Translations under genes and position numbers: made by a program | Assembly: GCA_035048485.1 (NCBI GenBank) | Contig: CM068587.1 | Coordinates: 25,748,534-25,812,533 of the forward strand | From: Pteria penguin | Taxonomy: Eukaryota > Mollusca > Bivalvia > Pterioida > Pteriidae | Length of the DNA stretch: 64,000 bases | Reading direction: 5' to 3' | In this document: one piece after another, positions 12,756-57,130 of the stretch | How the letters are laid out: the number at the start of each line of letters is the position of its first letter | Numbering within the stretch: position 1 is the stretch's first letter | The notes under the pieces: model-generated | Seen by the model: only the letters and a program-made list of their open reading frames with translations | What the model was told of the DNA's origin: nothing | The model's database searches: none

Positions 12756-13114
12756 GTACACGAAGCTTTTAATATGTAATTTATTCAGAGACATGAATGG
12801 AATGTTTGAATGAAAGAATTAATGCTTAACATTTCTACAGAAAATTAATTGATCAAAGATTTCTTTTCAAAAGAAATGATCAATACTTGAACTTAAAACA
12901 AGGTCTTAAACAGGGTCGTCCGGAAATCAAAATAGATTTTGGTAAACTTCCATGTAGTTTAATTCGGTAGTAACCATGCCCATTGCCTCCATTCTTACTA
13001 TCTCATGGGCCTGACTCGGTAAACATGGCTAGCGACGATTCACAAATTTTATCACGAGATTCTACAATACCTCCTTTTCAGAGAATTGTCTCGAAAAGGA
13101 CATAATCTTATGAT

Positions 13115-14335: not shown

Positions 14336-14826
14336 ACAATAAGGCATCAACGTTTGAATTATTTTAATTCAGGACTAGTAACTACGCTTATCTTATTGTG
14401 TAGTTGACCCAGTATAATTTTCTGATTAGGAAGGATTTTTACAGAAATGTAAGATGGCCCATGTCTGCACCCATTACCCCATTTGGTCCCAAAGATCCCC
14501 CAAATGACCTCGCAAACTTTCTTCTGACGTTTTGCGCTCAGTGGCCCACTTTAGAACATCGAGGCGAATCGAACTAATTACTTTTAAATTCATTGCTTTC
14601 TTTTTATATATTAGTCGACCGCGTGATTATGCGAGGATCTCGTTGTGTCACATGAGCGGTCATAAACTCAGATAAGGGATCATTCATTACATCATCTATG
14701 CTTCAAATCAGGGAGGCGTTACACCTCTCACCATGTTAAGGTATGTGTCGCAAAACTCCGGTTTTCCGTTTTCCTCTACAATCAGCATTTTTTCATCGCA
14801 TTTTAAAAAATATTTTCGTTTTTCAG
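14336..14826 (+). other. Intron 2 remainder of the plus ASB-like gene
   Basis: Unique-looking intronic sequence leading to the exon 3 acceptor. No other feature is visible. Confidence 0.5.
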
Positions 14827-15802
14827 ACGTAGTGGATCTTGTAAAATGGATAAAGGATACATTTTCTCTGCAAGATGAAGTCGGTAATGTCCCGCACGTC
14901 ATCCAAGCTACTATTAATAATTCGCCGGAAATGTTAAAAGTTCTGTTACCATCACCAACAGCTAACTCGAAATCACGTGACAAATTATCCTTCACATTCA
15001 AATTCTATTCCGCTTTAGAATTAGCTATATCATTAAATTTTCACCAGTGTTCAGAAATCCTCAGACAGTATGATATGCCGAAAACAAAAAAAGAATGTCC
15101 TTTACTCGAACTTTTAAACGATTTTCAAAGTACGAAATACACCTTTGCGCAGTTAGTATCGCACATAACATTAGCCGGATATGACCTCAATGAATGTTTC
15201 AAATATGGTCAGTTTCGATGCCCTCCTTTATATGATGCTATAGTAGATTCTGATCTTGAGATGATTAAGATTTTATTAGCTAATGGAGCTACGTTATTCA
15301 ACGAAAAAGATATCACTGTTTTAGGATGCCCACCACGTTACTTGCTGAATATATCCATCATAATGTTGATATTTGTACTGAAAAAGGTTCTGTTTTGAAC
15401 GACATCCTTGAAGGCGGAAAGAAGAGAGAAAAGCTGTTATACTTCGTTCTTTACGCTGCACATACTGTTCCTCAAAATGACCGACAACGACTGTCCGAGT
15501 TGTGTTCAGATCCAGATTTCTATGCATGCTCTCGAACTATGCAGTTTCTAAACAATTCTCGCACTTTATCAATATTATGTAGAAATTCCTTGAGGAAGCA
15601 TTATGGTCACAAAATTCATTTATTTCTCGATAGTGTAGTTTTACCTAAATATTTCAAAGAATTTTTGAATCTTCAAGAGGTGTTGAAGCCTTATATGGAA
15701 CTACCATTATCTTTCTCACAGTGCTATGATGTTTTGGAAAAAGACGCATTCGTATCCGATTTTCCATGCACAGTGTTTGCAACAGATGTTTACAGTTTCT
15801 GA
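14827..15802 (+). CDS. ASB-like plus copy, exon 3 with one-base deletion
   Basis: The acceptor is cgtttttcag at 14826. Frame is open to about 15337, where one T of a TTT run seen in the paralogue is missing. The remaining SOCS-box part is open in the next frame to the TGA at 15800-15802. Confidence 0.75.
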
Positions 15803-21255: not shown

Positions 21256-22760
21256 ATTGCTAATTGCAGACACCTGAGTATGATGTATGTCATGGAGGAG
21301 TAATCGCAAACACCTGGGTATGTTGTATTTCATGGAGAAATGATCACAGATACCTGAGCATGATGTATGTCATGGAGGAGTGATCACAGACACATGAGTA
21401 TGATGTATGTCATGGAGAAGTGGTAACAGACACCTGGTGAGAAGATGTGAAATGGGGGAGTAAGTAATCATAGACACCTGGCGAGAAGGTGTGCGATGGA
21501 AGAGTAAATGATCATAGACACCTGGTGAGAAGGTGTGTGAGGGAGGAGTAAGTGATCATAGACACCTGGAGAGAAGGTGTGATAGAGGAGTAAGTGATCA
21601 TAGACACCTTGTGAGAAGGTGTGTGATGGAGGAATAAGTAATCATAGACACCTGGTGAGAAAGTGTGCCATGGAGGATTAAGTGATGATAGACACCCGGT
21701 AAGAAGATGTGAAATGGAGGTGTAAGTGATTATAGACACCTGGTGAGAAGGTGTGTGAGGGAGGAGTAAGTGATCATAGACACCTGGAGAGAAGGTGTGT
21801 GAGGGAGGAGTAAGTGATCATAGACACCTGGAGAGAAGGTGTGTGAGGGAGGAGTAAGTGATCATAGACACCGGGTGAGAAGGTGCGTGATAGAGGAGTA
21901 AGTGATCATAGACACCTGGAGAGAAGGTGTGCGATGAAGGAGTAGGTGATCATAGACACCTGGAGAAAAGGTGTGCGAGGGAGGATTAAGTGATCATAGA
22001 CACCTGGCGAGAAGGTGTGTGATGGAGGAGTAAGTGATCATAGACACCTTGAGAGAAGGTGTGTAAGGGAGGAATAAGTGATCATAGACACATGGAGAGA
22101 AGGTGTGTGAGGGAGGAGTAAGTGATCATAGACACCTGGAGAGAAGGTGTGTGATGGAGGAGTAAGTGATCATAGACACCTGGAGAGAAGGTGTGCGATG
22201 GAGGAGTAAGTGATCATAGACACCTGGAGAGAAGGTGTGTGATGGAGGTGTAAGTGATCATAGACACCTGGAGAGAAGGTGTGCGATGGAGGAGTAAGTG
22301 ATCATAGACACCTGGAGAGAAGGTGTGTGATGGAGGAGTAAGTGATCATAGACACCTGGAGAGAAGGTGTGCTATGGAGGAGTAAATGATCATAGACACC
22401 TTGTGAGAAAGTGTGCCATGGAGGAGTAAGTGATCATAGACACCTGGAGAGAAGGTGTGCGATGGAGGAGTAAGTGATCATAGACACCTGGAGAGAAGGT
22501 GTGTGAGGGAGGAGTAAGTGATCATAGACACCTGGAGAGAAGGAGTAAGTGATCATAGACACCTGAAAAGAAGGTGTGTGATGGAAGAGTAAGTGATCAT
22601 AGACACCGGGTGAGAAGGTGTGTTATGGAGGAGTAAGTGATCACAGACATCTGGTGAGAAGATGTGAAATGGAGGTGTAAATGATTATAAACACCTGGTG
22701 AGAAGATGTGAGATGGGGGAGTAAGTGGTGATAGTCACCTTGTGCGATGGAGGAGTGAGT
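21256..22760. repeat. 44-bp minisatellite array
   Basis: The unit reads approximately gtgatcatagacacctggag plus agaaggtgtgtgatggaggagtaa, with period 44 bp and about thirty units. The best-conserved core is 21740-22520, and the array decays at both edges. No coding capacity. Confidence 0.92.
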
Positions 22761-23430
22761 GATCATAGACTCCTAGAGAGAAAGTATGCAATGGAAGAGT
22801 AAGTGAACATAGGTATCGAGAGAGAAAATGTTCAATAGAGAAATACGTGATCATAGACACTTAGAAAAAAGGTATGAATTAGAAGAGAATGTGATAATAG
22901 ACTTCTAGGGATAACGTGTGCCATGAAGGAGTAACTGACCATAGACATTAAAATATAAGGAGTGCGTTGGAGGACACTTAGATATAAGGTGTGTCATGAA
23001 GAGGCCAAGTATCATAGACAATTAGGAATAAGGTGTCTTAAAAAGGAGTAAGTGATGACAGACGCCTTGGGATAATGTGTGTCAAAGAGGAGTAAATGAA
23101 CATAAATAACTAGATATAAGGTATGTCTTAAAAGAGTAAGTGTTCACATATACACACACACATACACACACAAACACACACACACTGTGGATAAGGTGCG
23201 CCATGAAGGAGAATGTTATCAGACACCTAGGTGTAACATATCCCATGGAGGAGTAGATATTCACACAGACACCTAGATTCAAGTTGTGCCAAGGGGGAGT
23301 AAGTATTTACAGACAGTGGATAAAGTGTGTCATGGAGGAGTATGTAATCACATACACTTGGGGATAAAGTGTATCATGAAAGTGTAAGTGATCATAGACA
23401 GATTGGAAAAGTGTGCCATTGATGAGAAAT
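22761..23430. repeat. Degenerate transition zone of the minisatellite with a (CA)n patch
   Basis: Units are still recognisable ('ggagtaagtgatcatagaca'-like) but strongly diverged. A CA-rich stretch lies at about 23145-23185. Confidence 0.75.
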
Positions 23431-24682
23431 CATGGAGGTGTAAATGACCACAGACACATATAGGGACCAGGTGTGTCATGAAGGAGTAAGTAATAATAGA
23501 AACTTAGAAACAAGGTGTGTCATGGAGGTGTAAATGGCCACAGATACCTACGGACGAGATGTGCCATGAAGGAGTAAGTAATAATAGAAACTTAGAAACA
23601 AGGTGTGTCATGGAGGTGTAAATGGCCACAGACACCTATAGGGACGAGGTGTGCCAAGAAAGAGTATGTAATAATAGAAACTTAGAAACAAGGTGTCTCA
23701 TGGAGGTGTAAATGGCCACAGATACCTACGGACAAGATGTGCCATGAAGGAGTAAGTAATGATAGAAACTTAGAAACAAGGTGTGTCATGGAGGTGTAAA
23801 TGGCTATAGATACCTACGGACGAGATGTGCCATGAAGGAGTAAGTAATAATAGAAACTTAGAAACAAGGTGTGTCATGGAGGTGTAAATGGCTACAGATA
23901 CCTACGGACGAGATGTTCCATGAAGGAGTAAGTAATAATAGAAAATTAGAAGCAAAATGTGTCATGGAGGTGTAAATGGCTACAGACACTTATATGGACT
24001 AGTTGTGCCATGAAGGAGTAAGTAATAATTGAAACTTAGAAACAAGGTGTGTCATGGAGGTGTAAATGGCCACAGATACCTACGGACGAGATGTGCCATG
24101 AAGGAGTAAGTAATAATAGAAACTTAGAAACAAGGTGTGTCATGGAGGTGTAAATGGCTATAGATACCTACGGACGAGATGTGCCATGAAGGAGTAAGTA
24201 ATAATAGAAAATTAGAAGCAAAATGTGTCATGGAGGTGTAAATGGCTACAGACACTTATAGGGACGAGGTGTGCCAAGAAGGAGTAAGTAATAATTGAAA
24301 CTTAGAAACAAGGTGTGTCATGGAGGTGTAAATGGCCACAGATACCTACGGACGAGATGTGCCATGAAGGAGTAAGTAATAATAGAAACTTAGAAACAAG
24401 GTGTGTCATGGAGGTGTAAATGGCTATAGATACCTACGGACGAGATGTGCCATGAAGGAGTAAGTAATAATAGAAACTTAGAAACAAGGTGTGTCATGGA
24501 GGTGTAAATGGCTACAGATACCTACGGACGAGATGTGCCATGAAGGAGTAAGTAATAATAGAAAATTAGAAGCAAAATGTGTCATGGAGGTGTAAATGGC
24601 TACAGACACTTATATGGACTAGTTGTGCCATGAAGGAGTAAGTAATAATTGAAACTTAGAAACAAGGTGTGTCATGGATAAG
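23431..24682. repeat. 88-bp dimeric higher-order minisatellite
   Basis: The repeating unit is 88 bp, made of two diverged 44-bp halves: one with 'gatacctacggacgagatgt', the other with 'aatagaaacttagaaacaag'. A variant block ('gaaaattagaagcaaaatgt') recurs at 23941 and 24561, 620 bp apart, or about seven dimers. This shows a further order of amplification. Confidence 0.9.
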
Positions 24683-25254: not shown

Positions 25255-26493
25255 ATGAATAGGACTTTATGCGAGAACAAGATGGCTTTAAATATGGCAA
25301 TTTTCGTAATGTGCGTTTATCTAAAAATTGTTCAAGGGCATTATTTTGATTGGAAAACAGAGAATGTTCGTGAGCTATCGGACATTCTGATTCATCCTAA
25401 TAGTCGATTAATGGAACCTGTTATAAAGCATTCCTCCGTTCCCGAAACAAATGTGGAGATGTCAATTTCTGTAAGAAATTTAATAGACTTTGATGTGTCT
25501 GCAGGAGTATTAAAGCTGTTTGCCATATTCACATGGAAATGGACAGATGAAACTTTAAGATGGGACAGATATGAATATTTAGACCAGTATTATATTCGAT
25601 TGTCCAAAAATAAGATTTGGATGCCTCTTATTTACATTAAAAATTCAGCTCATGGGACGGATGCGTTGACTGTAGCGGAATCTGTTTATGTTGGTGCATC
25701 GGGAGGATTATCATACGAATCCCCCCTAATTTTGGAGACATTATGCACTCCCGATGTTTCAAAGTATCCTTTTGATGTACATATTTGCGATATAAACTTC
25801 GCTCCTTTATTGGATAACCCTGGTTTTTCTCTCGAGTGTCATCATTTCTTTACTAGCGATATGTGGGAAAACTCCAAGTGGAATGTAACAAAAATCAAAG
25901 TAGTTAACAAAGAAGGTAGGTATGTTGATATATACATAAGACTTGCAAGACATTCTTCTTTTCTGATGATGAATCTTGTCGCACCTATTTTACTTTTAGG
26001 AATTTTAAACTTATTTGTTTTTATTCTCCCTCAAGAATCCGGAGAACGCATGGGTTTCAGTATTACAATGCTGTTAGCATTTGTGGTGTTTCTGTCCTTC
26101 ACATCTGAAAATCTACCGGACAGTAATACATCAACTTGCATTTTTAATTTGTTCCTGGTAGCACAACTTGTCGAGAGCGCTATGATTACAGTTGCAGTAA
26201 TATTCTTATCCTGGCTTTATCATATGTCTGAAGAAAGAAGACCCATACCTTTGTTTTTGCATTACATTTTTCGTAAGCATCGAACAGCATCTGTGAAACC
26301 ACATGATGGATTGATATTTGTCATAGAAGAAGAAAACCCAGAATCTGAATCCAACAACAAAACGGACACTCATCACCCAAGTACCTTAACATGGGTCAAA
26401 ATCGCTTCCACGTTTAACTATATCATTTGCATTGGATTCATCCTTCTTTCACTTGTAGAGAAAACTGTTATGTTTGGAATGATCGTTAGTTAA
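25255..26493 (+). CDS. Nicotinic acetylcholine receptor-like Cys-loop channel subunit, intronless
   Basis: A 412-residue single-exon open frame. A hydrophobic signal peptide (about residues 10-28; the ATG at residue 10 is an alternative start) leads into a ligand-binding domain. The Cys-loop has cysteines 164 and 178 separated by 13 residues, with YPFD inside. Four membrane segments follow at about 244-268, 275-296, 305-331 and 390-410. The second begins 'GERMGFSI', typical of cation-selective nicotinic channels. The cytoplasmic loop is short (about 55 residues). The vicinal cysteine pair that marks alpha subunits in loop C is absent, so it may need a partner or bind another ligand. Family knowledge places such subunits as pentameric channels in the plasma membrane. 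Absence of introns suggests retroposition. A close paralogue lies at 44931-46187. Confidence 0.88.
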   Translation: MNRTLCENKMALNMAIFVMCVYLKIVQGHYFDWKTENVRELSDILIHPNSRLMEPVIKHSSVPETNVEMSISVRNLIDFDVSAGVLKLFAIFTWKWTDETLRWDRYEYLDQYYIRLSKNKIWMPLIYIKNSAHGTDALTVAESVYVGASGGLSYESPLILETLCTPDVSKYPFDVHICDINFAPLLDNPGFSLECHHFFTSDMWENSKWNVTKIKVVNKEGRYVDIYIRLARHSSFLMMNLVAPILLLGILNLFVFILPQESGERMGFSITMLLAFVVFLSFTSENLPDSNTSTCIFNLFLVAQLVESAMITVAVIFLSWLYHMSEERRPIPLFLHYIFRKHRTASVKPHDGLIFVIEEENPESESNNKTDTHHPSTLTWVKIASTFNYIICIGFILLSLVEKTVMFGMIVS

Positions 26494-29325: not shown

Positions 29326-29709
29326 TGTATGGGCTAGTTTAACTCGTGGCCATATGAGGTGGCAACGATATTACCGTATATTACTAATATATTTTATTTT
29401 AATATCTAATCAATTATCTGATCAATAAATCCTCGGAAAAGTTAAGTGACTGACCTCACTACGGACTTCAGTGTATAAATTTCGAAATTGCATATCTTAA
29501 AAGTACCCCATGGAAACAGTAGTTGTCAATTTTTATATTATCTGAACAGTATGGTTGAAAATATATTGGTATCTAATAAATAGATTTGACTTAATGAAAT
29601 AACAGTGTATGAGATAGTAGAATTCCTATGAAAGTCATCGACATGTATACTTTGACGGCAGATAATCCCTATTAATCATTGCTTGAAATGTTTTTGAGCT
29701 TGTAGTAGA

Positions 29710-30015
29710 CGGACATAGCATGGTTTTACTTATGTTGATGTCGCCTTAATATTTTTGATAGCTACATATAATTCTATAAACGTTTCATGTGTAAAACATT
29801 TTTATGACCTCTCGTCTTGAGAAATCTGTTGATCTTTTTTCTCTATATGGAGGGTTATTCATAAATTTTTAAATGTGTATCCTTTGATTGTGCTGCTTTT
29901 GCTGTGATTGGGAAGGTGGGTGCCCGTAAACCGGTACACCAATTTAGTGACGTTTATTAACTGACCGTCCTAAGTCGGTATCGTAACCGCAGCACAATCG
30001 AATATTTTTGTAATG
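29710..30015 (+). mobile_element. Naiad family-2 3'-terminal fragment with terminal hairpin block
   Basis: Matches the 3' UTR and terminal block of the Naiad copy at 43300-43610, including 'gttgatgtcgc', 'tatgacctctc', 'cctttgattgtgctgc' and 'gaccgtcctaagtcggtatc'. The block here has perfect 11-bp inverted ends (gattgtgctgc / gcagcacaatc). No coding part is present. Confidence 0.7.
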
Positions 30016-30453
30016 TCTTTTTTCCATGTATATATTACTATTATAATTTTTGTATGGATATAAGTCTATACAGTTAGAAATAGGTATATATATTTATTCT
30101 ACTGTTCACAATATTATATTGCTGTCACATCAACTGTATATTAGCTATAAATTGAAAATTGCCTTATGACTGTGTATGTACATGTATGCATTTATGTGTA
30201 AAGTAATTGTAAAGGTAGCCTAGTCCTGACAAGATATTTTTTCTTCTACTTTCCTCCACCACTTCAATGTTAGTAATTGCTGTGTTTCAATGATACTTTG
30301 ACCAAAACTCTTAATTTATCTGATATATTAATTAACATGTGTAAACTTAGATGGCTCTCTTTCTCTCCATTTTCCTATTATTACAAATTATCTATCATTA
30401 ATGAAGAAATTTGTGTAATATCATAATGATGCCTACCATTATATTTCTTTTGA

Positions 30454-35139: not shown

Positions 35140-36005
35140 TAAAAGAGAAAACAGGGGACATCTGACAAAGTTGTATGATACCAATCACCAAGAACAAGCA
35201 CACATAACATGATAATAGTAGAATATACAGGAAAAACATTATTAAATACTCGATTGTGGTGCGGTTACGATACCGACTTAGGACGGTCATATGAAGTAAC
35301 GAACGTCACTAAATTGCTGTGGTTAACCGATTTACGAGCGCCCACCTTCCCACTCACCGCAAAAGCAGCACAATCAAAGGACACACATTTAAAAATCTAT
35401 AAATAATTCTCCATATATAGAACAAGGATCAACAAGTTTCTCAAGAAGAGAAGTCATAAAAATTTTATTACACACGAAAGGTTTGTAGAATAATATGTGC
35501 TATAAAACTATGCAAGGGACACCACATAATGAAACCATGTTCTGCCCTTCTGTAAGCGAGCTTAGATCCTTGATCAATAGGAGTACCGACTAACAGTCAG
35601 AGGGGACGAGGATCAGGACCTTATCTCTTCTGAAAACGTTTGGACAAGGTCCTTCATAGAATCCCTACCGCCATGTTAGTTAGCGTGCAACGCTCAAGCA
35701 AATGTCTGTATTGGGCTGTAGAGGGACCCAATACAAGAACTATGGTCTTAGGCGATGATCTCGGAGTCATACTTTCGATGTCGATGGCGTTTAATTATTC
35801 GAGCACTCGCCACCGTAGAAATTAGGATGGGAAATTCCGCTGGATAGGTATTGTTGAAAAGTCACATTTCCGAATTTAGATAAAATGTCTGAATAAGATC
35901 TGTAAAATTTAACAAAAGTTTTTCGAAGTTTATGATATCTATAACCATGAGTAAGAAATTTAAAAGTAATCTGCATTTTTTTTTGCGTGAAAATCCAAAC
36001 GTTAG
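35140..36005 (-). mobile_element. Naiad family-2 fragment: C-terminal coding end, SECIS-like hairpin, terminal block
   Basis: The minus strand encodes the C-terminal phrase 'FLTHGYRYHKLRKTF' and 'GISHPNFYG' (35800-35976), matching the Naiad at 42830-42970. It then has a SECIS-like hairpin (35586-35690) and the terminal hairpin block (35231-35410). It is truncated at its 5' side, so most of the reverse transcriptase is missing. Distal phrases at 35140-35220 match those at 51720 and 62030. Confidence 0.8.
35586..35690 (-). ncRNA. SECIS-like hairpin, second copy
   Basis: On the minus strand, ATGA is followed by 12 nt (aggaccttgtcc), then AAA, a small apical stem-loop, a 3' arm ending aaggtcc, and TGAT. 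Helix II forms about ten pairs. Relative to the copy at 43151-43246, a G-U becomes A-U and a U-U mismatch becomes U-A, changes that preserve pairing. Outer arms CTAACA / TGTTAG also remain. Confidence 0.6.
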
Positions 36006-36009
36006 TGTA

Positions 36010-36685
36010 GGCTCTAGCTTAGAAAGCGCAGTTGAAGACCAATTACTAGCATTTAATATAAAACTTGATTTATAGAAGCCAATACATTGTTGAAAGATCG
36101 TTTTTATCTATGCTTAACTTGAAATCACACATAGCTTTACAATGGTCAGATAGGATCTTGTCTTTAAACAATGGAATCTCAACATACGTAGAAGTAGAGT
36201 TCAAATCAGTTTTAAGAACTGTAATATAGTAAATTTTTCAAACAATGATAATATTATTATCTGCTTTGTGAGCATTTGTGAGTATTATGTAAATCAGCCA
36301 TTTACTTTTTAATAGACTGGACTGGTATATAATGTGGCTGTTTGAATAAATGGGGATTAACTGTAAAATTACTAATTCGAATATCAATAATTTTACACCA
36401 TGTTCCTCTAAATATTCGAGTGCACTGGTTTCAAAACAAATAGAAAGAGAGGTAAGGCTCACAAAAAAGTCTAAGCCAGATAAATATACGTCAGCTTAAA
36501 GATGTAAGCAACTTGATGACCGTGTTGTCGAATATTTTGTGACATTCAAAATGTTGTTTTCTTGATATCTGTTATTTTGTTTTGAATTAAGTTGGCATTG
36601 TCATGTAGCTGAAATAAGGCAATTTAATCACATTTTTTTTTACATTACGCCATTGGTCCTAACCTGACTCTAGTATTAAAGAAAG
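36010..36685. other. Non-coding, nothing recognised
   Basis: No supported feature. Confidence 0.4.
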
Positions 36686-37929: not shown

Positions 37930-40895
37930 TCAATTTTTTTATTATCATTATGAACAAATATAATAAAGACATACAATACATACATGTATAGGCAAACACA
38001 ATGTTACACTACAACTTTCAAAACATATCACACTCACTCACTTTTCATCCTGTAAGAAAACCCATCCTTTTGCATTTTACAATGTATAATAATGATATAT
38101 AGTACATTAAGACGATCAAACTGTATATATACATATCTACATCCATTGAATATGTGTAACAATACAATAATGAATGTATAAAAAAATTAACAGGTAAATG
38201 CATTATATAGATGTACATAAAACAAAAAAAAATCTTACAAAATCATTCTTATCAATTAACATGATAACTTATATACATTATGCAAATGCGCTGTATAGTT
38301 TTCTACATTATACATTATATATCAAAATTTTTATCTATTATTTAATAAAAACAGTAAAGTCCCCCCCCCCTTTTTTTTTTAAATAAATTTGCTCCATTCC
38401 ATATTTTTCAGATGGATAAATTTATCAATTTTCAACAAACCCTTTTGCACCTGTAAAATTTGGAATGCAGTTTTTCATTTTCTGAGTATATATGTATTTT
38501 TTAATTAAACAAATTACTAAATTGAATGAGGTTTTTCTATTACTTTTGCCAAAAACAATATCAGTCTTATTAATGTTAATATCAATATTAAAATCACTTT
38601 TCATCCATGTAACAACATTTTCCCATATTACAGATTTCTTATTGCATGACCAAAAAATGTGAAGAATTGTTTCTGTATGGCTTTTAAAAAAAGTGCATAA
38701 ATTTGAATTAAAAAGACCTATCTTACATAATAAGGAATTTGTACCTAAAATTCTATGAATTATTCTGTATTGAAACCATTTTAAGCTAATATCATTCCCT
38801 AAATATTTAATTAAATCATTTTGTTCGTGCCATCATTTTTTTGTCAGGATAAAAGTTAAGTTCACTTTGCCATTTTTTTTCACTCTTTGGTATATCATAT
38901 ATATCATTTAGAAAAGTATTATAAATAAACCTTACACCCTTTGAATTTTTTTTAATAATACCTGAATGAAGTTTGGCCTAAATGGAATGCTTGTATTTAT
39001 ATATGTCATATCAAGTTCTTCAAGTATACCATGGATACATTGTATAACTCCATAGTATGGGGTAAAAGTAGGATTAAATCCAAACTTATTACAGAAACCA
39101 ACATACTGTAGAATATTACCATTAACATCTAAAAAATCATGTACTTATGCAATACCTTTTTTTGAACCATTGTTTATAGTAAATTAAATTTCCATTTATT
39201 TTAATTTTATCATTGTACCAAATGGATTCAAAGGCTATATTATCACTTTTACAAACAATAATTCTAAATTGATGGAAAGATATAAATACGTCTTTTTAAG
39301 AATTATTTGTGGTTTTATTAACTAAATTCCTGAAATATGAGCAATCAAAATTCAAATGATGATTTAAAATTCTTTGGAAGTATGTCCTGTAACAGCTTTT
39401 ACCATGAGGTTTAATTTGCATATGTTATAATCCTACGCATCTATGTTATTTTTAGACTTTCAATAAAAGACCTTACACCTATCATACGTAATCCTCCTTT
39501 ACAATAATCTTTGTGTAATAGTTTTCCTTGCAATTCAATCATTCTTATTTTTCCAAATAATTTAAGAAATATTTTCTCCAACTCTTTTATGAATTCATTA
39601 CTTGGGTTAGGTAGACTGATAAACAGATGTGGCAAAAAGAATAGATTTCACTACTGTTATCCTGCCAGCTGGCCTTATAAGACGCCTAGACTATGATTTT
39701 ATCATATGTTTTATTTCTTCTAATTTTTTTTCAAAATTTAAATCAATCATATTTTCTAGATCTGCTGTAAATGTTAAACTAAGAAAGGTAAAGGGCTCTT
39801 GTGACTATCTTAAATTGTAATCATTATTAAAATTGGCAGCAGAATTTCGAAGGGAACCTATTTTAATGCATGAAATTTTATGATAATTTGGCTTAAGCCC
39901 AGAATATTTAAAAAAAAATTGCTCAATCAGTGACAGAGCAGACCTGATGGATGATTCAGTGCCGTCTAACAGTACTGCTGTATCATCAGCATATTGAATC
40001 AGTTTATATTCTCTGATTATAATCCCTATTCCTTTGATATTTTTGTTTTTTCTTAACATTGCTCCCAAAATTTCAACACAAAAGAAATATGTAAGATGAA
40101 ACCGGATCCCCTTGTCGGCAGCCACGCCCAATTCTGAAGTAAGGAGATATTTGACCATTTTGTATGACACATAATTTGAAGTTTGTACAGAAAATACTAA
40201 TCCAACGTTGGATATTTTCACCAAAATTAAAAAAAAAATGAGGCACTTTTTAAATATATTTCCAGGACCCTGAAACAAAGGCCTTCTCAAAATCTATCAT
40301 AAGGAATCCTGGAATATTTCTTCCGTTACATATATATACAATATCGTATAAAAGTCTAGTGTTTTCACCGATATATCTTTCAGTTATAAAGCCTTCTTGA
40401 TTTTCATGAATTAAAGAAGGAAATACAGATATTATTTTTTAGCAATAATACCAGACAGTATTTTATAAGTAACATTTAGCAGAGAGATAGGTCTCCAATT
40501 TTTTATGTATTCTCTAGGTTTATTTCCTTTCGGTATAATTGACAATACACCTATTCTCTGTGACTGTGATAGTTCCCCCTTTTGAAAAATTGTTAAATAG
40601 GATCTATGAATAAAGTCACCAAGGTCGTTCCAAAAGAATTTGAAAAATTCCGCTGTAAAGCCATCACATCCTGGTGTATTGTTGTTCTGACACCTCTTTA
40701 ATGAATCTAAAACATTATATTTTGAAATACTTTCCTCTAAAATATTCTTCTCATTTTCTAAAAGATTTCAAAATCGTTTAGTTTTTCATTTAAATCAACA
40801 TCTTCTAGTAGGTGATCTCGACTTCTATAAAACTCTTCATAAAAAAGTTTTATTCTATTTAGAATTTCATTTTGTTCTTCTTTGTTGGCCGTCAT
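37930..40895 (-). mobile_element. L1/Tx1-like LINE, 3' portion (decayed)
   Basis: The minus strand encodes, in shifting frames, reverse-transcriptase landmarks. These include 'IPKGNKPREYIKNWRPISLL' near 40440-40560, the YADD catalytic box in 'QYADDTAVLLDG' near 39960-40000, and a downstream 'KDYCKGGLRMIGVRSFIESL' near 39450-39520. A C-terminal Cys/His-type 'ETILHIFWSC' lies near 38640-38680. Frameshifts and stops make it inactive. The upstream part continues at 43692-43885, beyond an inserted Naiad. The 3' boundary is estimated from an A-rich tail near 37930. Confidence 0.78.
39805..40290 (-). pseudogene. LINE reverse-transcriptase fragment with YADD box
   Basis: The longest intact frame of the decayed LINE (161 codons) has 'QYADDTAVLLDG' and 'SGLKPNYHKISCIKIG', the catalytic motif C and the following palm segment of L1-type reverse transcriptases. 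Flanking frames continue the domain after frameshifts. Confidence 0.75.
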
Positions 40896-43178
40896 GAACT
40901 TTTGCATGCACTATCCTCTATTCCGGTAAATAAATTGAAATCTATCCTGGACGAAGCTGATCTTCGAAGTTTACGCAATTCTGATTGATATAAACTCAAT
41001 TTGATTATTTTATTTTCATATAATAAACTCTTTCCTCGTATTCCGTCTCTTCCACCCAAGCAGCAATTTCTCAAAATTAAATTTATTAATAAAGGCTTCG
41101 ATCTACTTAACATTTCTAATATTTTCCGTGATCATAGAGTCACATCTAAAATCCCCCAATATTTTGAGAATTTAGAACCTCCACTTATTTGTTACCAGTA
41201 CAAAAAGCCTATAACAAATCTTATTCTAAATTATAATAAGTTACATCTAATCCTGATGTTTCAGACTCTATTCCTTCATCGTGTTCTTGTGAAAAATCTA
41301 AATATGTTTATAAACCGGCAGGTCATGTTATTACTGGTGACCTAAACTGTATTTCAGACAAGAAATTGCGCACCCTTTTTGGAAAAGGACCTAAATATAG
41401 GTTACCGTCCAGGATAGATTTCAATAAATGCCGTGACGTTATAGAAAATGCTTTAACTACATATTGTAAACGTTGGTGTAAAAAAGAACAGGGAAAGGTT
41501 CATGCTCTTAATGATTGGAAATACGAGATTTTAAGAATTGTCGATATCCGTATTAAGAACTTTACGGAAAATCCGCATTTATTTCAACAGCCTAATACAT
41601 TGACGGCAAATTCTATTAAAAAGAAGATAGCTGACTTACATGCTAAATATGTCTTTGTTCCTGCTGATAAAGCAGGTAATAACATAATAGTTGTTTGAAA
41701 ACTATATTATATTGAAGTACTTAAAAACGAATTAAACTCCACTCATACATATATGGAAAGCTCTACCTCAAAAGACAGCACCTTGCACGATCCCCTCATG
41801 ACCATGTCCGACTTCAAAATTAAAACTGATAAATCTGATCTACCAACCATATATTGGCTCCCAAAACTACATAAAAGTCCATATAAATCACGTTTCATAT
41901 CTAATTCTAGCCACTGCTCTACTACGGTACTATCGAAGCATATTACGTCTGCTCTAACTACTGTAAAAGATCATATTATCAAATATTGTGATGTCGCATT
42001 TCATAATAGTAATATCAATTACTTTTGGTCGATTAAAAATTCTCATGAAGTTATAAACAAACTTCTTTCACTAAATTTCAAAGCGACTCAAATTTCTACA
42101 TTTGATTTTTCTACACTTTATACATCTCTGCCTCATGATTTGATTAAAAGCAAGTTGCTGTCTCTTATACAATGGTGTTTTCACAGAGAATCTAAAACTT
42201 ACATATGTACTTCCAATAACTCCGGATTCTTTTCCAACAAACAGTATACTTCATATAAATACTGGACTTGCAAGGAATTATGTAAAGCACTGGATTTTCT
42301 CATGAATAATATTTTTGTGCAATTTGATGGCAAGATATATCAACAAATAGTTGGGATTCCTATGGGTACTAATTGCGCGCCTCTGATAGCAGATTTATTT
42401 CTTTATTGTTATGAGAGGGATTTTATGGTTTCTCTTCAAAAATCAAAACGTTTTGACCTCATTGACAAATTCAATAATACTTGCAGATATCTGGATGACA
42501 TTTTGGTTATCGACAACCCTGAATTCGAACAATTTATATCAAAAATTTATCCACCAGAGCTCACATTGAATATAGCTAATACTTGAGATAAATCTACACC
42601 TTTCTTAGATTTAAACATCAAAATTATCAACCACCTAATATATACTCATATTTATGATAAACGTGAGGATTTTGGATTTCCTATTGTAAATTTCCCTTAC
42701 TTGGATGGCGATGTCCCTCGACTCCCATCATATGGTATCTATATATCTCAATTAGTTCGATTTGTCAGAGGCTGCACCGATGTTTTGGACTTTCATAAAC
42801 GAAATTTACAAATTACTACTAAACTTTTTAACTCAGGGTTACAGATATCACAAGCTAAGAAAAACATTCGGCAAATTCTTCAGATCTTATTCAGAACTTC
42901 TATCTAAATTTGGAAATATTTCTTTTCAACAGTATGTATCCAATGGAATTTCCCATCCTTATTTTTACGGTGATCTCGTATATAAACTAAGGAAAGTAAA
43001 AGGCTCCGATAACGTTATTTTATCATGTAATAAAATAATCAAACGTCTTATAAATAGACAATATGATATTGAGATCATCAAAAAGACTATAGGTCTTGTA
43101 TTTGGCCCCTCTACAGCCTTATGCAGACTTTTACTTGAACGTTGCACGCTGACTAACAGGGCGGTGGGGACTATATGA
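40896..43178 (+). pseudogene. Naiad family-2 reverse transcriptase frame with in-frame TGA codons
   Basis: The reading frame needs single-base shifts near 41240 and in a T5 run near 42826. Between these it contains three internal stops, all TGA, at 40986, 41696 and 42584. The CxC motif that defines the group is present ('SSCSCEKS', near 41278), followed by 'GKGPKYRLP'. Reverse-transcriptase boxes are 'FDFSTLYTSLP', 'GIPMGTNCAPL' and an intact 'CRYLDDIL'. The TGA at 41696 falls in 'IIVV-TGA-KLYY', where the family-1 copy has a cysteine (TGT) in 'FTCKKYY'. TGA exclusivity and the SECIS-like element downstream suggest a selenoprotein-coding lineage. Frameshifts mean this copy itself is probably dead, unless they are assembly errors. 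Confidence 0.78.
41696..41698 (+). other. Candidate selenocysteine codon (TGA at a conserved Cys position)
   Basis: The TGA precedes AAA CTA TAT TAT. The aligned family-1 copies at 55529 and, on the minus strand, near 50265 have TGT followed by AAG AAA TAT TAC. A Cys-to-TGA replacement is the usual signature of selenocysteine. Confidence 0.6.
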
Positions 43179-43246
43179 CGGGCCTTGTCCAAACCTCTTT
43201 CAGAGGAGACATGGTCCTGAACCTCGTCCCCTCTGACTGTTAGTCG
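43151..43246 (+). ncRNA. SECIS-like hairpin overlapping the Naiad stop codon
   Basis: ATGA at 43175-43178 (its TGA is the stop codon) is followed by exactly 12 nt (cgggccttgtcc), AAA at 43191, and a small stem (cctc-tttca-gagg). The 3' arm ends atggtcc and TGAA follows. Helix II forms about nine pairs. Outer helices GGGGAC / GTCCCC and GACTAACAG / CTGTTAGTC extend the stem. This matches form-2 eukaryotic SECIS architecture (AUGA, AA, GA). The alternative is conservation of a C-terminal peptide in another frame. Confidence 0.62.
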
Positions 43247-43423
43247 GGACTCCTACAGATTTAGGGTCTTAGCTCGCTTTCAGACTGGCAGAGCACGGTT
43301 TATCATGTTGATGTCGCATATATTTTTATACCATTATGTATTTTACAATACCTTACGTGTTTATATTTTTATGACCTCTCAATATGCGATACCTGTTGAC
43401 CCTTGTTCTTTACATGGAGGATT

Positions 43424-43610
43424 ATTTATAAATTTTTAAATGTACGTCCTTTGATTGTTCTGCTGTTACGGTGAGTGGGAAGGTGGGCCCGTAAACCGGT
43501 TAACCACACCATTTGTTTGGCTTTTGTCAAATTAAATGACCGTCCTAAGTCGGTATCGTAATTGCACTACAATCAAATATTTTTGTAATGTGATATATGT
43601 TCTAGTATAT
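43424..43610 (+). repeat. Naiad terminal hairpin block, reference copy
   Basis: Conserved block from 'cctttgattgttctgc' to 'actacaatcaaatatttttg', containing ggtgagtgggaaggtgggc, ccggttaaccacacc and gaccgtcctaagtcggtatc. At least six related blocks occur in the window (29868, 31797 minus, 35231 minus, 47572, 51650 partial, 62127 minus). The ends form an inverted repeat and the ACCG-loop-CGGT piece forms an inner hairpin. It probably corresponds to the pseudo-LTR end of the element. Confidence 0.7.
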
Positions 43611-43691
43611 TATTTATATTCATTTATTGTATAGCTCTATGGTGACTTCTGCCACATAACTGAGCCAGTAACTCCTCTTTTTTCTTTCTAT

Positions 43692-43885
43692 TATATTCCC
43701 ATTATCATCAATAAGTTTTGTAACAGTTTTATTTATAAAATTTCTTTTTTCCAAGTTGCAGAAATATCTTGTGGGCTTCTCACCATTCTCTATCCATCTT
43801 GCCCTAAATCTTAATAACAAACCTTCTAAATCATACCTTCTAATGTCTTCAAGACGTTCAGTAAGTTCTGATATTCGGTCGGATA
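43692..43885 (-). mobile_element. L1/Tx1-like LINE, upstream portion beyond the Naiad insertion
   Basis: The minus strand encodes 'LLRFRARWIENGEKPTRYF' and 'NLEKRNFINKTVTKLID', the segment that precedes the reverse transcriptase in L1-type ORF2 proteins. Joining 43692 to 40895 restores the LINE reading frame across an ATA|ATG junction. The LINE seems 5'-truncated near 43885. Confidence 0.72.
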
Positions 43886-44930: not shown

Positions 44931-46187
44931 CTAATTGACTATCATTCGAAACATAACAGCTTTCTCTATAAGAGATCCAATAATGAGTACAATACTCAAT
45001 ATCAGATTGAATTTAGCTGCCACCATCACCCATGTTACGTTGTTCTTGTCAGTTTCTTGGACTGTTTTGTCACCCGAATCTACATGTAGGTCGTCGTTAT
45101 TCTGTTTGGAACGTGCAAGTTGCCGACAAAATATTACTTTGAAGCACTTTGGTATGGTCGTGTCCCCTGGTAAATGATGCAGCCAAGATAGACATATTAT
45201 TGCTACTGTAATGATTGCACTTTCCACAAGCTGTGCAAGAAGAAACAGGTTAAAGATGCAAACTGATGTGTTACTGTCTGGTAACTCTTCTGCTGCGAAG
45301 GAAAGAAAAACCACAAATGACAACAATATGGTGATGCTGAATCCCATGCGTTCACCAGACTCCTCTGGTAAAGCGAATACAAAAAGATTCATAATTCCCA
45401 GAAGCAAAACAGGAGAAACAAGGTTCAATGTTAGAAAAAACGAATGTCGTTTTAGTCTAATAAATATATCTACATACCGTCCTGCTCTGTTAAGTATTTT
45501 TACCTTTGTTACATTCCACATCGCATTTTCCCACATGTTTTCAGTATCGAAAAAATCGCTGAACATGAAAAATCCTGGGTTATCTAACAATGGTGCAAAA
45601 TAAATAGGGCATAAGTGTACATCAAATGGATACTTTGAAACATCGGGAGTGCACAACGTTTCCAGAATAAGTGGGGATTCGTAATGAACGTCCCCTGATG
45701 ATTCGATGTAAACAGATTCTGCAACAGTTAAGGCATCCGTTCCTTTAGCAGTATTCTGAATGTAGACAAGTGGCATCCAAATCTTATCTTTTGATAATCG
45801 AATATAATTCTGTTTATAAAATTCTGATGCATCCCATTTCAATGTGATATCATTCCATTTCCATTGGAGAATTGCAAATAATTTTAAGGTGCCAGATGAT
45901 ATATCAAAGTCAAGTAAATTTTGCACCGATATATTCATTTTTACTATTGTCTTTGGATAATCGGAATGCTTAATAACTGGTTCGTTAAATCGGCTATTTG
46001 GATGCACCAGGATATCGGTAAGCTTTCGAATATTCGTAGTTTTCCAATTAAAATGATGCCTTGTATTTACGGTGGAATCATGAGGGCTTGGTGTTGTGGT
46101 CGTGGTCGTTGTTGTATTTGCTGTTGCTGAAACTATTGCCAGAACGACGCTAGAACAAACACTAGCTGCGATGAATTTTGCAAACAT
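44931..46187 (-). CDS. Nicotinic acetylcholine receptor-like Cys-loop channel subunit, intronless paralogue
   Basis: A 418-residue single-exon gene closely related to 25255-26493 over its whole length. A signal peptide (about residues 1-23) is followed by a Thr tract (TTTTTTTT, about 25-32) and the ligand-binding domain. The Cys-loop is C179-C193 with YPFD. Four transmembrane segments are present, with 'SGERMGFSITILLSFVVF' at the second. As in its paralogue, the loop C vicinal cysteines are missing. The acidic residue preceding the second membrane segment suggests cation selectivity by family rule. The cytoplasmic loop is short. The start ATG at 46187 is the first in frame and gives a good signal peptide. 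It probably arose by retroposition or duplication of an intronless parent. Confidence 0.88.
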   Translation of the reverse strand: MFAKFIAASVCSSVVLAIVSATANTTTTTTTTPSPHDSTVNTRHHFNWKTTNIRKLTDILVHPNSRFNEPVIKHSDYPKTIVKMNISVQNLLDFDISSGTLKLFAILQWKWNDITLKWDASEFYKQNYIRLSKDKIWMPLVYIQNTAKGTDALTVAESVYIESSGDVHYESPLILETLCTPDVSKYPFDVHLCPIYFAPLLDNPGFFMFSDFFDTENMWENAMWNVTKVKILNRAGRYVDIFIRLKRHSFFLTLNLVSPVLLLGIMNLFVFALPEESGERMGFSITILLSFVVFLSFAAEELPDSNTSVCIFNLFLLAQLVESAIITVAIICLSWLHHLPGDTTIPKCFKVIFCRQLARSKQNNDDLHVDSGDKTVQETDKNNVTWVMVAAKFNLILSIVLIIGSLIEKAVMFRMIVN

Positions 46188-47370: not shown

Positions 47371-47775
47371 CTCTAACGAGCCTTGTCCAAACCTGATCCT
47401 CATCCCCTTTGACTGTTAGTCGGGATTCCTATTGATCAAGGATCTGAGCTCGCTTACAGATGGGCATAGCACGGTTTACTTATGAGACGGCAACATATTA
47501 TTCTATAAACGTTTCGTGTGTAATAAAATTTTAATGACTTTTCTTCTAGAGAAACTTGATATATGGAGAATTATTTATAAATTTTTAGATGTGTGTCCTT
47601 TGATCGTGCTGCTTTTGCGGTGAGAAGGAATGTGGACGCTCGTAAACTGGTTAACCACACCAATTGAATGACGTTTGTTACTTCAATTGACCGTCCTAAG
47701 CTGTATCGTAACCCCAGCACAATCGAATATTTTTGTAATGTTTTCCGTGTGTATTCTAAGATTATCATGTTTTGT
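47371..47775 (+). mobile_element. Naiad family-2 3' fragment with deleted SECIS arm
   Basis: Starts within the SECIS-like region ('gccttgtccaaacc') but lacks its 3' arm, jumping directly to 'tgatcctcatcccc'. It continues with 'gactgttagtcgggattcct', the 3' UTR and a terminal hairpin block (47572-47745) in which the inner hairpin has lost its CGGT side. Confidence 0.7.
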
Positions 47776-48911: not shown

Positions 48912-49409
48912 TCAGTCCAGAATATCATTTAAAAGTCTGGATAACGAGATATCATATGGAATAATAAGAGTCTCGTAACGCTCGTAGAATTTCCTCAGTG
49001 ACGTTGCTAGTCTAGCACATATATAACCCTGGTAGAGCAGCTTAACTGAAATTCGCCTAGCCCTCAGAACAAAGTCATTGTAATGTGAACATGCTCTGGA
49101 ATAACGTATTAACTGAGATATGAATACGCCGTATGCGGGCGATGATGGAATGTTGCTACTTATGAAAGGAAAGTTTGTGATAGCGAAATTGAAATTGTCA
49201 CGTTTGTCATAGAGTGAGGTGTTCAATTGACCATTAATGTCGAAAGACAACATAATATCTAAATACGAAGTACAATTACTACTTTCTGTGGTTTCCTTGA
49301 TCTCCAGTTCACTTGGATAGATGATGCTAAGGTAATCCGCGAATGAAGGATTATTAATTGAAAGCAAATCATCTATATATCTGTAAGTAAAACTGAAGCC
49401 AAGAGCCAA
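48912..49409 (-). pseudogene. Naiad family-1 RT C-terminal frame (minus)
   Basis: A 165-codon open frame containing 'YRYIDDLLSINNPSF' and the thumb/C-terminal region of the reverse transcriptase. It ends in 'LLNDILD', the same terminus as the copy at 54203-56821. Upstream domain parts are frameshifted. Confidence 0.8.
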
Positions 49410-49619
49410 TTGTTTTTTTTTCCTTGCAAAAGCAAAGACTGAATGAATTCAGCTTAGTATGAGTAAAGGTTTATGTCAGCCAGATGCGGAGCACAGTTAG
49501 TGCCCATTGGAATGTCGACTCTAAACACCACAAAAATGTTATCGACAAGAAAGTTCAACATCTGGATGACAGCTTTTTCAGTGCATTTATTTTTGGAATC
49601 AGAATTTTCCCTAACAAAG

Positions 49620-49780
49620 TAAGTTTTATTATGGCCTATAACTATATATTTGAATTTGCGGCTTCCGTTTTTACTAGTAAATGCATTTTTATTATTTTTA
49701 TTATTAAGTTTTATTATGGCCTATAACTATATATTTGAATTTGCGGCTTCCGTTTTTACTAGTAAATGCATTTTGAATAA
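49620..49780. repeat. 85-bp tandem duplication within the decayed Naiad
   Basis: The sequence aagttttattatggcctata and the following bases to 'actagtaaatgca' occur twice, 85 bp apart, joined by an ATT-rich linker. The related element at 56030 has this segment only once. Confidence 0.85.
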
Positions 49781-50615
49781 TTTCCGCTAACCTGTCTTTT
49801 AATTTCTGATGAGGGATCGTTGTGTAAAGAGTCGAAAAGTCAAAAGACTTGATGGAGTGAATTTTAGTAAAATTTTTGATTTTAGATGTTCTAACAACTC
49901 TTTTAAATTTTTAAGGATCCACATTTGATTAATTCCACTTCTGGAATATATTGTTTCGCAATATCTATTAAGGCCAGATTTAATTTCTGATAATATTTTT
50001 GTGAGTAGCATCGATAAAGATGATGTGGAACACTTCGAGGAACCAGCGATAAAGCGTTATTTGCAAGGATTTTTGTGCATTTTTGGAATGCAGTACAAAT
50101 ATCTTCTAAATTTAATTTATTTGTGTCAGTACCAAACGTATTGAGGACAGATTTATTCTCAAGTACTTCCGGAACCGAAAAGTTCGTGAGAGTATAAGTA
50201 GGATTTCCTGGAGCTGAATTTAATCCTGATTCTTTCACTAGGCTGTCAAAGTAATATTTCTTACAAGTAAATGTATAATTATTAGACGTTTTATCTGCTG
50301 GTGTAATGATATAATGTTCTTGGAGGAAGGTAAGTTCTGACAACATCAGGATCTTTAAAAATATATTTGGCTCCATGTGAATGATCTGGGTTCTCTGTAT
50401 TTTGGACCTTTAAGTAAAAGTTCTTTTCATTTAGTGTTTTTAACAATATCAAGATTACCAGTAATGACATGGCCACAAGGAGAATATACAAAATTAGATG
50501 TGGAACATGCACACGGTTGAGGATGGCATGCAGAGTTGCTAAGATCAAAACACTGTAGAAAGCCTTTGTAATTATAAATTCTGGATACAACTGATGGTAA
50601 AAGTTTGTTCTCTTG

Positions 50616-54202: not shown

Positions 54203-57130
54203 TAGAATTGTAAGAGTTCAAATATTGTGTACGGTATTGAGTGTTCACTCTGTGGGTTAATATATGTTGGAGAGACAAAGGGACAACTCCGTACAAGAGT
54301 ATCAGGTCACAGGTCCAAAATAAATTGTGGTGGAAACCAATTACTCTATCGCCACTTCAACCAGCCTGACCACTCTATTCTCTCAATGAAAATTAGAATT
54401 ATAGAAAAAATATATCACCCCACAAACAATGCCAATATGAGCACTCCTTTTCGTCGGAAAAGAGAAGAATACTGGATAAGACGGCTCGGCACTGCTTCGC
54501 CCAATGGATGCAACGACAATATTAGTAGTATTGGTAATCTCACTAGTCCTGCGTGTCAATCAGTTAACGTACTCGGTTTATTCAACAAAAGCCAGAGGAG
54601 GCATCGAAGTCATGGTACACGCAAAGACAACAAACCTGAAATACATAATATTTCCTTTGATGCTCTTTTGCCATTTATAAATAAACCTTTGGGCCTTCAT
54701 CACATTCGTACAAAACTTTATTCTATTTCACTCAGAAAATTACACGAGTTGTACGTATCGTCCAGACACCGTATATTTACTGATATAAGCTCTGCAGAGT
54801 ATAGACTAGATGGCATTATTATGGACATATCGACCGCTAAACTTTTTCGTCCCGTCAAGTCAGATATTTCTATGGAAAAATCTAATCGCCCTTTAATCAA
54901 AATTAAATTTGCAAATAAAGGCATTGATTATTTAAATTTTGGCCAAATGTTAAATCATAAGTCTGTTTTAGAGAAAATACCTCCATATTTCAAAAACAAA
55001 GATCCGCCATGTATTTCCTATAGCTACACGCCATCAGTTGCATCCAAAAGTTATAATTACAAAGGGTTTCTACAGTGTCTTGATCTTAGCAACTCTGCAT
55101 GCCATCCTCAAGCGTGTGCATGTTCCTCATCTAATTTCGTATATTCTCCTTGTGGCCACGTCATTACTGGTGATCTCGATATAGTTAAAAACACTAAATT
55201 AAGAGAACTTTTACTTAAAGGTCCAAAATACAGAGAACCCAGATCATTCACATGGAGCCAAAATTTTGAGAATATTATGAACTGCTGCGAGGAATATGCC
55301 ACACCATGGGCAAAAAGAGAGGAAGTACAAGTCGACACTCTTTCGGAATGGATAAAATCTATTGCAGTACTGCTGAGATCAAAAATTAAAAAATTACAAG
55401 GTTCTGTAAACACCAGATTCGAATCTATTTTTAAAGATCCTGATGTTGTCAGAGAACTTACCTTCCTCCAAGAACATTATATCATTACACCAGCAGATAA
55501 AGCATCTAATAATTATACATTTACTTGTAAGAAATATTACTTTGACAGCCTAGTGAAAGAATTAGGATTAAATTCAGCTCCAGGAAATCCTACTTATACT
55601 CTCACGAACTTTTCGGTTTCGGAAGTACTCGAGAATCATAAATCTGTCCTCAATACGTTTGGTATTGACTCAAATAAATTGAATTTAGAACTTCCATATT
55701 TGTACTGTATTCCAAAAATGCACAAAACTCCGTACAAACAACGCTTTATCGCTGGTTCCTCGAAGTGTTCCACAAAATCTGTATCGATGCTACTCACAAA
55801 AATATTATCAGAAATTAAATCTGGCCTTCATAGATATTGCGAAACAGTATATTCCAGAAGTGGAATCAATCAAATGTGGATCCTTAAAAATTTAAAAGAG
55901 TTATTAGAACATCTAAAATCTAAAAGTTTTACTAAAATTCACTCCATCAAGTCTTTTGACTTTTCGACTCTTTACACAACGATCCCTCATCAGAAATTAA
56001 AAGACAGATTAGCAGAAATTATTCAAAATGCATTTACTAGTAAAAAAGGAAGCCGCAAATTCAAATATATAGTAATAGGCCACGATAAAACTTACTTTGT
56101 TAGGGAAAATTCTGATTCCAAAAATAAATACACTGAAACAGCTGTCATCCAGATGTTGAACTTTCTTATCGATAACATTTTTGTGGTGTTTGGAGGTAAG
56201 GTTTTTCAACAAATTGTCGGCATTCCAATGGGCACTAACTGTGCTCCGCTTCTGGCTGACATATTCCTTTATTCATACGAAGCTGAGTTCATTCAGTCTT
56301 TGCTTTCGCAAGGAAAAAAACAATTGGCTCTTGGCTTCAATTTTACTTACAGATATATAGATAACTTGCTTTCAATTAATAATCCTTCATTCGCGGATTA
56401 CCTTAGCATCATCTATCCAAGTGAACTGGAGGTCAAAGAAACCACAGAAACTAGTAATTCTACTTCGTATTTAGATATTATGTTGTCTTTCGACATTAAT
56501 GGTCAATTGAACACCTCACTCTATGACAAACGTGACGATTTCAATTTTGCTATCACAAACTTTCCTTTCATAAGTAGCAACATTCCATCATCGCCCGCAT
56601 ACGGCGTATTCATATCTCAGTTAATACGTTATTCCAGAGCATGTTCAAATTATAATGACTTTGTTCTGAGGGCTAGGCAACTTTCAGTTAAGCTGCTCAA
56701 CCAGGGTTATATATGTGCTAGACTAGCATCGTCACTGAGGAAGTTCTACGGTCGTTACGAGACTCTTATTACTCCATATGATATCTCGTTATCCAGACTT
56801 TTAAATGATATTCTGGACTGAGACTGATTCCGATCACTTTACACAGATTTGACACCTTCTATACTAGAAGGTTACCTACTTCGACTTCTCCATATATAAA
56901 TACATATGGAATTCACACGATTTGACTCTTTCTACTGGGCATATGTGACGGGTGTTGCTAGCAAGCAGGAGATGCTCACTCTCCCGGGCACCTGATCTCA
57001 CTCCATCACAGGGGTTCACATATGCTCTTCAAGTAGACATATTTTGTTATTTTCCATTTGTTTTTCATTTTCACTGATTTTGTATGTCCTATGGTTTCAT
57101 GATTTTTGGACTTGTGGTTTGGATTTATCC
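54203..57130 (+). mobile_element. Naiad family-1, longest copy
   Basis: Includes the GIY-YIG nuclease, CxC linker and reverse transcriptase in one frame (54227-56821), followed by a 3' UTR to about 57130. The UTR has 'agcaagcaggagatgctcac' and 'gggcacctgatctcactcc', shared with 48610-48790 and 32660-32740. The 5' boundary is uncertain. An in-frame TAG at 54203 precedes the nuclease and no ATG lies between. Confidence 0.82.
54227..56821 (+). CDS. Naiad Penelope-like retroelement protein: N-terminal GIY-YIG endonuclease plus reverse transcriptase
   Basis: An 864-codon open frame. Residues 1-97 form a GIY-YIG nuclease ('IYVGETKGQLRTRV', 'REEYWIRRLG') with the C6/C9 and His residues of the Penelope-type CCHH arrangement. 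A linker carries the CxC motif ('ACACSSS', about residue 298) and 'LKGPKYREP'. The reverse transcriptase follows: 'FDFSTLYTTIP', 'GIPMGTNCAPL', and motif C as 'YRYIDNLLS'. This domain order, nuclease before polymerase, is the permuted Naiad arrangement. Canonical Penelope elements have it reversed. By family knowledge the nuclease nicks the target and the polymerase copies the RNA there. Motif C has Asn where the related copy at 49380 keeps the second catalytic Asp, so this protein is probably inactive. The first codon of the open frame is GTG and the true start is missing or lost. Confidence 0.85.
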   Translation: MYGIECSLCGLIYVGETKGQLRTRVSGHRSKINCGGNQLLYRHFNQPDHSILSMKIRIIEKIYHPTNNANMSTPFRRKREEYWIRRLGTASPNGCNDNISSIGNLTSPACQSVNVLGLFNKSQRRHRSHGTRKDNKPEIHNISFDALLPFINKPLGLHHIRTKLYSISLRKLHELYVSSRHRIFTDISSAEYRLDGIIMDISTAKLFRPVKSDISMEKSNRPLIKIKFANKGIDYLNFGQMLNHKSVLEKIPPYFKNKDPPCISYSYTPSVASKSYNYKGFLQCLDLSNSACHPQACACSSSNFVYSPCGHVITGDLDIVKNTKLRELLLKGPKYREPRSFTWSQNFENIMNCCEEYATPWAKREEVQVDTLSEWIKSIAVLLRSKIKKLQGSVNTRFESIFKDPDVVRELTFLQEHYIITPADKASNNYTFTCKKYYFDSLVKELGLNSAPGNPTYTLTNFSVSEVLENHKSVLNTFGIDSNKLNLELPYLYCIPKMHKTPYKQRFIAGSSKCSTKSVSMLLTKILSEIKSGLHRYCETVYSRSGINQMWILKNLKELLEHLKSKSFTKIHSIKSFDFSTLYTTIPHQKLKDRLAEIIQNAFTSKKGSRKFKYIVIGHDKTYFVRENSDSKNKYTETAVIQMLNFLIDNIFVVFGGKVFQQIVGIPMGTNCAPLLADIFLYSYEAEFIQSLLSQGKKQLALGFNFTYRYIDNLLSINNPSFADYLSIIYPSELEVKETTETSNSTSYLDIMLSFDINGQLNTSLYDKRDDFNFAITNFPFISSNIPSSPAYGVFISQLIRYSRACSNYNDFVLRARQLSVKLLNQGYICARLASSLRKFYGRYETLITPYDISLSRLLNDILD

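Follow-up and report, generated by a model that had tools for sequence, protein, structure and literature searches.

Naiads are Penelope-like retroelements in which a Cys-x-Cys (CxC) motif lies between the endonuclease and the reverse transcriptase (RT). Selenocysteine (Sec) is inserted by a host machinery whose components include SBP2 and eEFSec, and the GPx4 homolog of fowlpox virus has a SECIS within its open reading frame (ORF). Sec-encoding Naiads have reportedly been found in clams and spiders by Craig, Yushenova, Rodriguez and Arkhipova in 2021 (Mol Biol Evol 38:5005). The element described here shares with those Naiads an RT with a CxC linker, several in-frame TGAs and a SECIS, and differs from them in that the copy lacks the GIY-YIG endonuclease and is very probably dead. 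As in the fowlpox gene, the SECIS overlaps coding sequence, but the Naiad ORF ends in the SECIS core itself. Selenoprotein P, a multi-Sec animal selenoprotein, would resemble the Naiad lineage in having more than one UGA recoded per mRNA; the consulted part of PMC8266573 describes it as a cellular gene whose 3' UTR carries two SECIS elements, whereas the Naiad is a retroelement whose single SECIS contains the stop.

Here, we have analysed a window of 64 kb, the whole stretch of DNA presented, and show that its plus strand codes at 40887-43175 for most of a Penelope-like RT, which is identical to the family-1 Naiad ORF in the same window at 213 of 560 aligned positions (38%). The features of the element, and the two family-1 Naiads used for comparison, are:

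40887-43685, plus strand: Sec-type Naiad (Penelope-like element), 5'-truncated; 3' end approximate (43676-43690)
40887-41235 (end approximate), plus strand: first frame piece, linker and N-terminal RT region, frame 3
40986-40988, plus strand: site A, in-frame TGA; apparent stop kept in the nearest lineage, without Cys in other Naiads
41240-42836 (approximate), plus strand: second frame piece, CxC motif and RT catalytic motifs, frame 2
41282-41290, plus strand: Cys-x-Cys motif, TGT TCT TGT, of which some relatives have W (probably TGA) in place of the first Cys
41696-41698, plus strand: site B, in-frame TGA; Cys or probable Sec across the family
42584-42586, plus strand: site C, in-frame TGA; Ser in most relatives, best read as a lesion of this copy
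42837 (approximate)-43175, plus strand: third frame piece, C-terminal part ending in TNRAVGTI, frame 3
43149-43246, plus strand: SECIS hairpin, with the Rfam SECIS_1 match at 43167-43230
43176-43178, plus strand: terminating TGA, part of the SECIS ATGA core
48915-50597, minus strand: broken family-1 Naiad, TGT (Cys) at site B
54227-56821, plus strand: family-1 Naiad ORF of 864 aa, TGT (Cys) at site B

The frame shifts twice, near 41.24 and 42.84 kb, and its in-frame stops are TGA only (40986, 41696, 42584 and the terminal 43176), with no TAA or TAG. On a frame-by-frame reading, the original prediction is confirmed as to the two frameshifts and as to the internal stops, which number exactly three and are TGA each time, while the start that it had placed at 40896 moves to about 40887, where homology begins. 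That all three internal stops are TGA has a probability of ∼0.014, weak taken alone, if random single substitutions in these codons are assumed, with ∼24% of new stops being TGA. Programmed frameshifting at either frame change was considered and rejected, because one relative (P0121) runs through both places in a single frame. A perfect 20-nt inverted repeat (40934-40953/41406-41425) has both arms in the coding sequence of the element; repeats as long occurred in 8 of 2000 shuffles.

Of the marks of a Naiad, the Penelope/TERT-type RT and the CxC motif are present and the N-terminal GIY-YIG domain is not. The GIY-YIG part is absent from the 40887-43685 copy, where homology begins downstream of it, and its loss is likely due to truncation. 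Among the relatives, P0115 has a GIY-YIG match (PF01541) of 27.1 bits against a cut-off of 22.6, and the domain was not found in P0121, P0025, P0015 or P0201; the match in the family-1 ORF is weak (16.6 bits, below the cut-off). To the left of the element, three minus-strand pieces match successive parts of Pfam RVT_1, weakly and each below the cut-off. The right flank, from about 43690, can be read by eye as belonging to the same LINE ORF, at an earlier point, and gave no Pfam match. Since the flanks read as pieces of a LINE ORF, the Naiad copy is probably a 5'-truncated insertion nested in that minus-strand ORF. A search for a target-site duplication between the flanks found matches of 6-7 nt only, nothing decisive.

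The fold of the family was approached through P0121, for which an AlphaFold2 model from a 97-row alignment has a mean pLDDT of 78.9. Residues 71-830 are modelled confidently, with ten-residue means of 76-97 except for 59 at 131-140, and pLDDT stays below 50 from residue 838 on. The W that stands at the terminator is residue 849, and the sequence past it looks non-coding. Foldseek ranks 1-15 are all telomerase RTs (E 2.2e-10 to 9.8e-7), with low TM-scores (0.25-0.32 by query and 0.28-0.43 by target). A sequence search of the PDB (query A2) returned no match.

We consider it highly probable, judging from the sequence, that 40887-43685 is a dead, truncated Naiad whose relatives would read UGA at sites A and B as Sec by means of the SECIS and would stop inside the SECIS core, site C and the two frameshifts being lesions of this copy's own; this judgement covers the whole reading jointly. 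Being truncated and frameshifted, the copy cannot encode the protein itself. The lineage has therefore to be judged from its relatives. Three protein searches, from which the best 120 of 2836, 988 and 258 matches were taken, gave 290 different proteins. When the other 289 were compared with P0121, 121 were at least 70% identical to it (near) and 168 were below this (far).

The protein sources state no genetic code, and TGA in the relatives is read from protein patterns, with DNA from the window alone. Some relatives appear, from their sequences, to have been translated with TGA as W and others with TGA as stop. Among the 121 listed near relatives, site B is missing from all 9 whose sequence stops at the terminator. 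Three others extend from a W at site B as far as the terminator, and each of them reads on through it as W; a further 29 show W at site B without extending to the terminator. The terminator column is W in all 16 listed relatives with a residue there (15 near, 1 far). Since stop or W at the terminator tracks absence or W at site B, and since the terminator column is all W, W behaves as TGA in these relatives. Further on, in PLWLL[VA]GTP, W occurs again in 15 of 16 listed proteins (P0121 included) that were chosen by a pattern requiring W at the terminator, and here the window DNA is TGA (43234). In all, four positions at which relatives show W are TGA in the window: 40986, 41696, 43176 and 43234. 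As for DNA of the relatives, a search of viral contigs gave no match, and a search of genome contigs gave two, with 33% identity in one case and a match of 84 nt in the other, which were left unused. Naiad-like sequence also turned up in records named after bacteria (L001, NYSS01000008.1; L002, NZ_JAQRMS010000122.1; P0053; P0134: Planctomycetota and Thioglobus MAGs; Campylobacter, Ca. Thiodiazotropha), which is probably animal contamination.

Site B (41696) follows a PADKAxNN motif, which we take to be part of the N-terminal region of Penelope-like RTs. The TGA had been said to stand opposite TGT (Cys) in both family-1 Naiads of the window, and it does. The near listed relatives have W in 32 cases and S, C and K in one each, while 16 end exactly one residue before the site and 12 start 1-12 residues after it. 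The 168 far ones have C in 47 (of 63 aligned), W in 14, R in one and a gap in one, with 30 ending exactly before the site and 41 starting 1-12 residues after it; the remaining listed proteins fall short of site B or start elsewhere. The proposal that 41696 is a Cys/Sec site is therefore borne out, in that relatives mostly have Cys, an apparent readable TGA or an exact break point there. The S, C, K or R in three near and one far listed relative speaks against the lineage reading. In a FastTree phylogeny of 160 RT sequences, of which 73 were labelled Sec (as judged from W or a start just after site B), 48 Cys, 38 unknown and 1 other, the inferred Cys/Sec label needs 4 changes by parsimony; 300 label shuffles needed 38 on average and never fewer than 27. 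As this switch seldom changes on the tree, gain and loss of Sec could be dated. Because other Naiads have Cys there, Sec at site B would be at least compatible with function.

It is very unlikely that the conserved UGAs are true stops, or sites of leaky readthrough, by which the protein is split, with the SECIS-like hairpin in some other role. Many predicted proteins do break at site B with homology continuing in frame, and stop-codon readthrough is reported in animals in the parts of PMC3840789 and PMC5100048 consulted; but the alternation with Cys at site B is that of a Sec site (47 C, 14 W and 71 breaks among the far listed relatives), and the 3' end matches a SECIS model.

Site A (40986) had likewise been proposed as a recoded stop, and in the nearest lineage it appears to be conserved as one, without a Cys counterpart among the relatives aligned there. 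All 22 near listed relatives with a residue there have W, 24 start 1-12 residues after it, and site A is without a residue in each of the 16 near listed proteins that break off at site B (in P0269 owing to an internal gap). On the strength of these three observations, the TGA at site A appears to be conserved in the nearest lineage. The exact column in distant Naiads is uncertain by one residue: in a multiple alignment of 97 of the 290 proteins they have Tyr in 23 of 28 and Cys in none, and in pairwise alignments they have Leu in 13, Tyr in 6, Met in 5, and Q, S, G, N and W once each. It is conceivable that site A arose as a nonsense change in an element that could tolerate it because a SECIS was already in place.

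At the 3' end of the element, the Rfam model SECIS_1 (RF00031) gives a full-length match at 43167-43230 on the plus strand. It scores 36.6 bits, above the gathering score (35), with E values of 7.8e-5 for 4.4 kb and 0.0011 for 64 kb, and this is the only Rfam match at the gathering score within the 64-kb window. The hairpin (43145-43250) folds at -50.9 kcal/mol (z -5.0), as well as which none of 200 shuffles folded. It shows, in order, ATGA (43175-43178), 12 nt, AAA, an apical stem and CCTGAA, so that the frame ends inside a hairpin of the predicted kind. With SECIS_1 it shares the AUGA core, the unpaired AAA, the apical stem and the UGA on the 3' side, and it differs in that the ORF terminator is part of the core: the terminating TGA at 43176 is the UGA of the AUGA. 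The claim that this stop lies inside the SECIS holds here and in a second copy, and apparently in relatives. A crude SECIS pattern scan of our own missed the main SECIS, found only that of the second copy, and gave 0-3 matches in each of 20 shuffles.

The second copy lies on the minus strand of the window:

35244-36393, minus strand: second Sec-type Naiad copy, diverged and internally deleted; TGA at site B (36240-36238)
35603-35665, minus strand: its SECIS, which at 31.5 bits (E 5.6e-4 for 1.3 kb) falls short of the gathering score (35)

It is 70-74% identical to the main copy in two aligned stretches and has an in-frame TAA by our reading of the alignment, yet it keeps TGA at site B, and its SECIS core also holds an in-frame TGA. 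Between the two SECIS elements, 24 of 32 pairs are unchanged, 3 changed on one side, 4 broken, 1 gapped and none changed on both sides, which speaks against resting a strong claim on the two. It is very unlikely that a decayed Naiad acquired its three TGAs as ordinary nonsense mutations and its hairpin by chance. The main copy is indeed truncated and frameshifted, three TGAs out of three is weak evidence as calculated above, and site C is unconserved; against this, sites A and B fall on break points and on W/C columns of the relatives, the SECIS scores above the gathering score at the right place, and a diverged copy shares the site B TGA together with a weaker SECIS.

Site C (42584) does not behave as the other two. 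Near listed relatives have S in 37, C in one and a gap in one, and far ones have S in 93, T in 18, N in 5, A and D in 4 each, V in 2, and I, L and Y in one each. With W in none and Ser in 130 of the 167 aligned residues, the proposal that 42584 encodes Sec was rejected, and from these sequences its TGA is best read as private damage of the 40887-43685 copy. That all three internal TGAs are Sec in a live sublineage is hardly credible, since no listed relative has W at site C, breaks off immediately before it or begins 1-12 residues beyond it, even though the site, 591 nt from the SECIS core, could be recoded and one relative (P0027) has Cys there. As site C is TGA and yet not conserved, a TGA alone proves nothing. 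Two marks of a eukaryotic selenoprotein are present, an in-frame TGA at a Cys/Sec position (41696) and a SECIS (RF00031) at the 3' end; conservation of every internal TGA as Sec or Cys is not, with 42584 unconserved and 40986 lacking Cys in the 28 aligned sequences. The original prediction of a Sec-encoding Naiad lineage accordingly stands for family membership, the SECIS and sites A and B, and fails for site C, having counted one TGA too many. The first Cys of the CxC motif, Cys in the window copy, is C in 78 and W in 28 listed relatives (19 near, 9 far), and this column is probably a further, third Sec site in other lineages.

We argue that, in a Naiad lineage that apparently encodes Sec at sites A and B, intact relatives would express one long protein with a linker bearing the CxC motif and a TERT-like RT. 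The host Sec machinery (SBP2, eEFSec), recruited by the SECIS, would decode UGA at sites A and B, which in the window copy lie 2189 and 1479 nt from the SECIS core. Translation would end at the UGA in the SECIS core, too close to be recoded, because a stop inside the SECIS falls below the minimum UGA-SECIS spacing, quoted as 51-111 nt in the part of PMC3316567 consulted and as 51 nt in that of PMC3737529. We propose tentatively, as something quite possible, that UGA has three fates on one mRNA, namely Sec at site B (Cys in relatives), Sec at site A (no Cys in the relatives sampled) and a stop in the SECIS core, and that the hairpin would by a conserved design protect its own terminator. An ORF stop that is itself the SECIS core would offer a direct test of how near its SECIS a UGA escapes recoding. 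Retroelements relying on the host selenium supply would also be one of the few cases in which mobile DNA and genetic recoding come together.

In the extracts of the literature searched on SECIS position and selenoprotein retroelements, we recognised no description of a stop inside the SECIS core, and among the papers covered by a text search none joined 'Penelope-like elements' and 'selenocysteine'. Sec-encoding Naiads as such are reportedly already known; the terminator in the SECIS core and a site A without a Cys counterpart may be new.

Other sequences were noticed in the window. More 3'-end fragments akin to the Sec-type Naiad lie at 29707-30016 (+), 31955-31682 (-), 47392-47741 (+) and 62214-62153 (-), of which the second is 96% identical (266/277) to 43425-43701. 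The family-1 ORF at 54227-56821 is uninterrupted and possibly young. Minisatellites with 44- and 88-nt units occupy 21414-24678, and GC skew is strong, 0.36 in 20-24 kb. An inverted set of ORFs, alike by eye, lies at 3886-7400 (-) and 11897-15802 (+), with a weak SOCS-box match, below the cut-off, in 3889-4746. Two uninterrupted ORFs for cys-loop ligand-gated channels are found in opposite orientation at 25255-26493 (+) and 44931-46187 (-).
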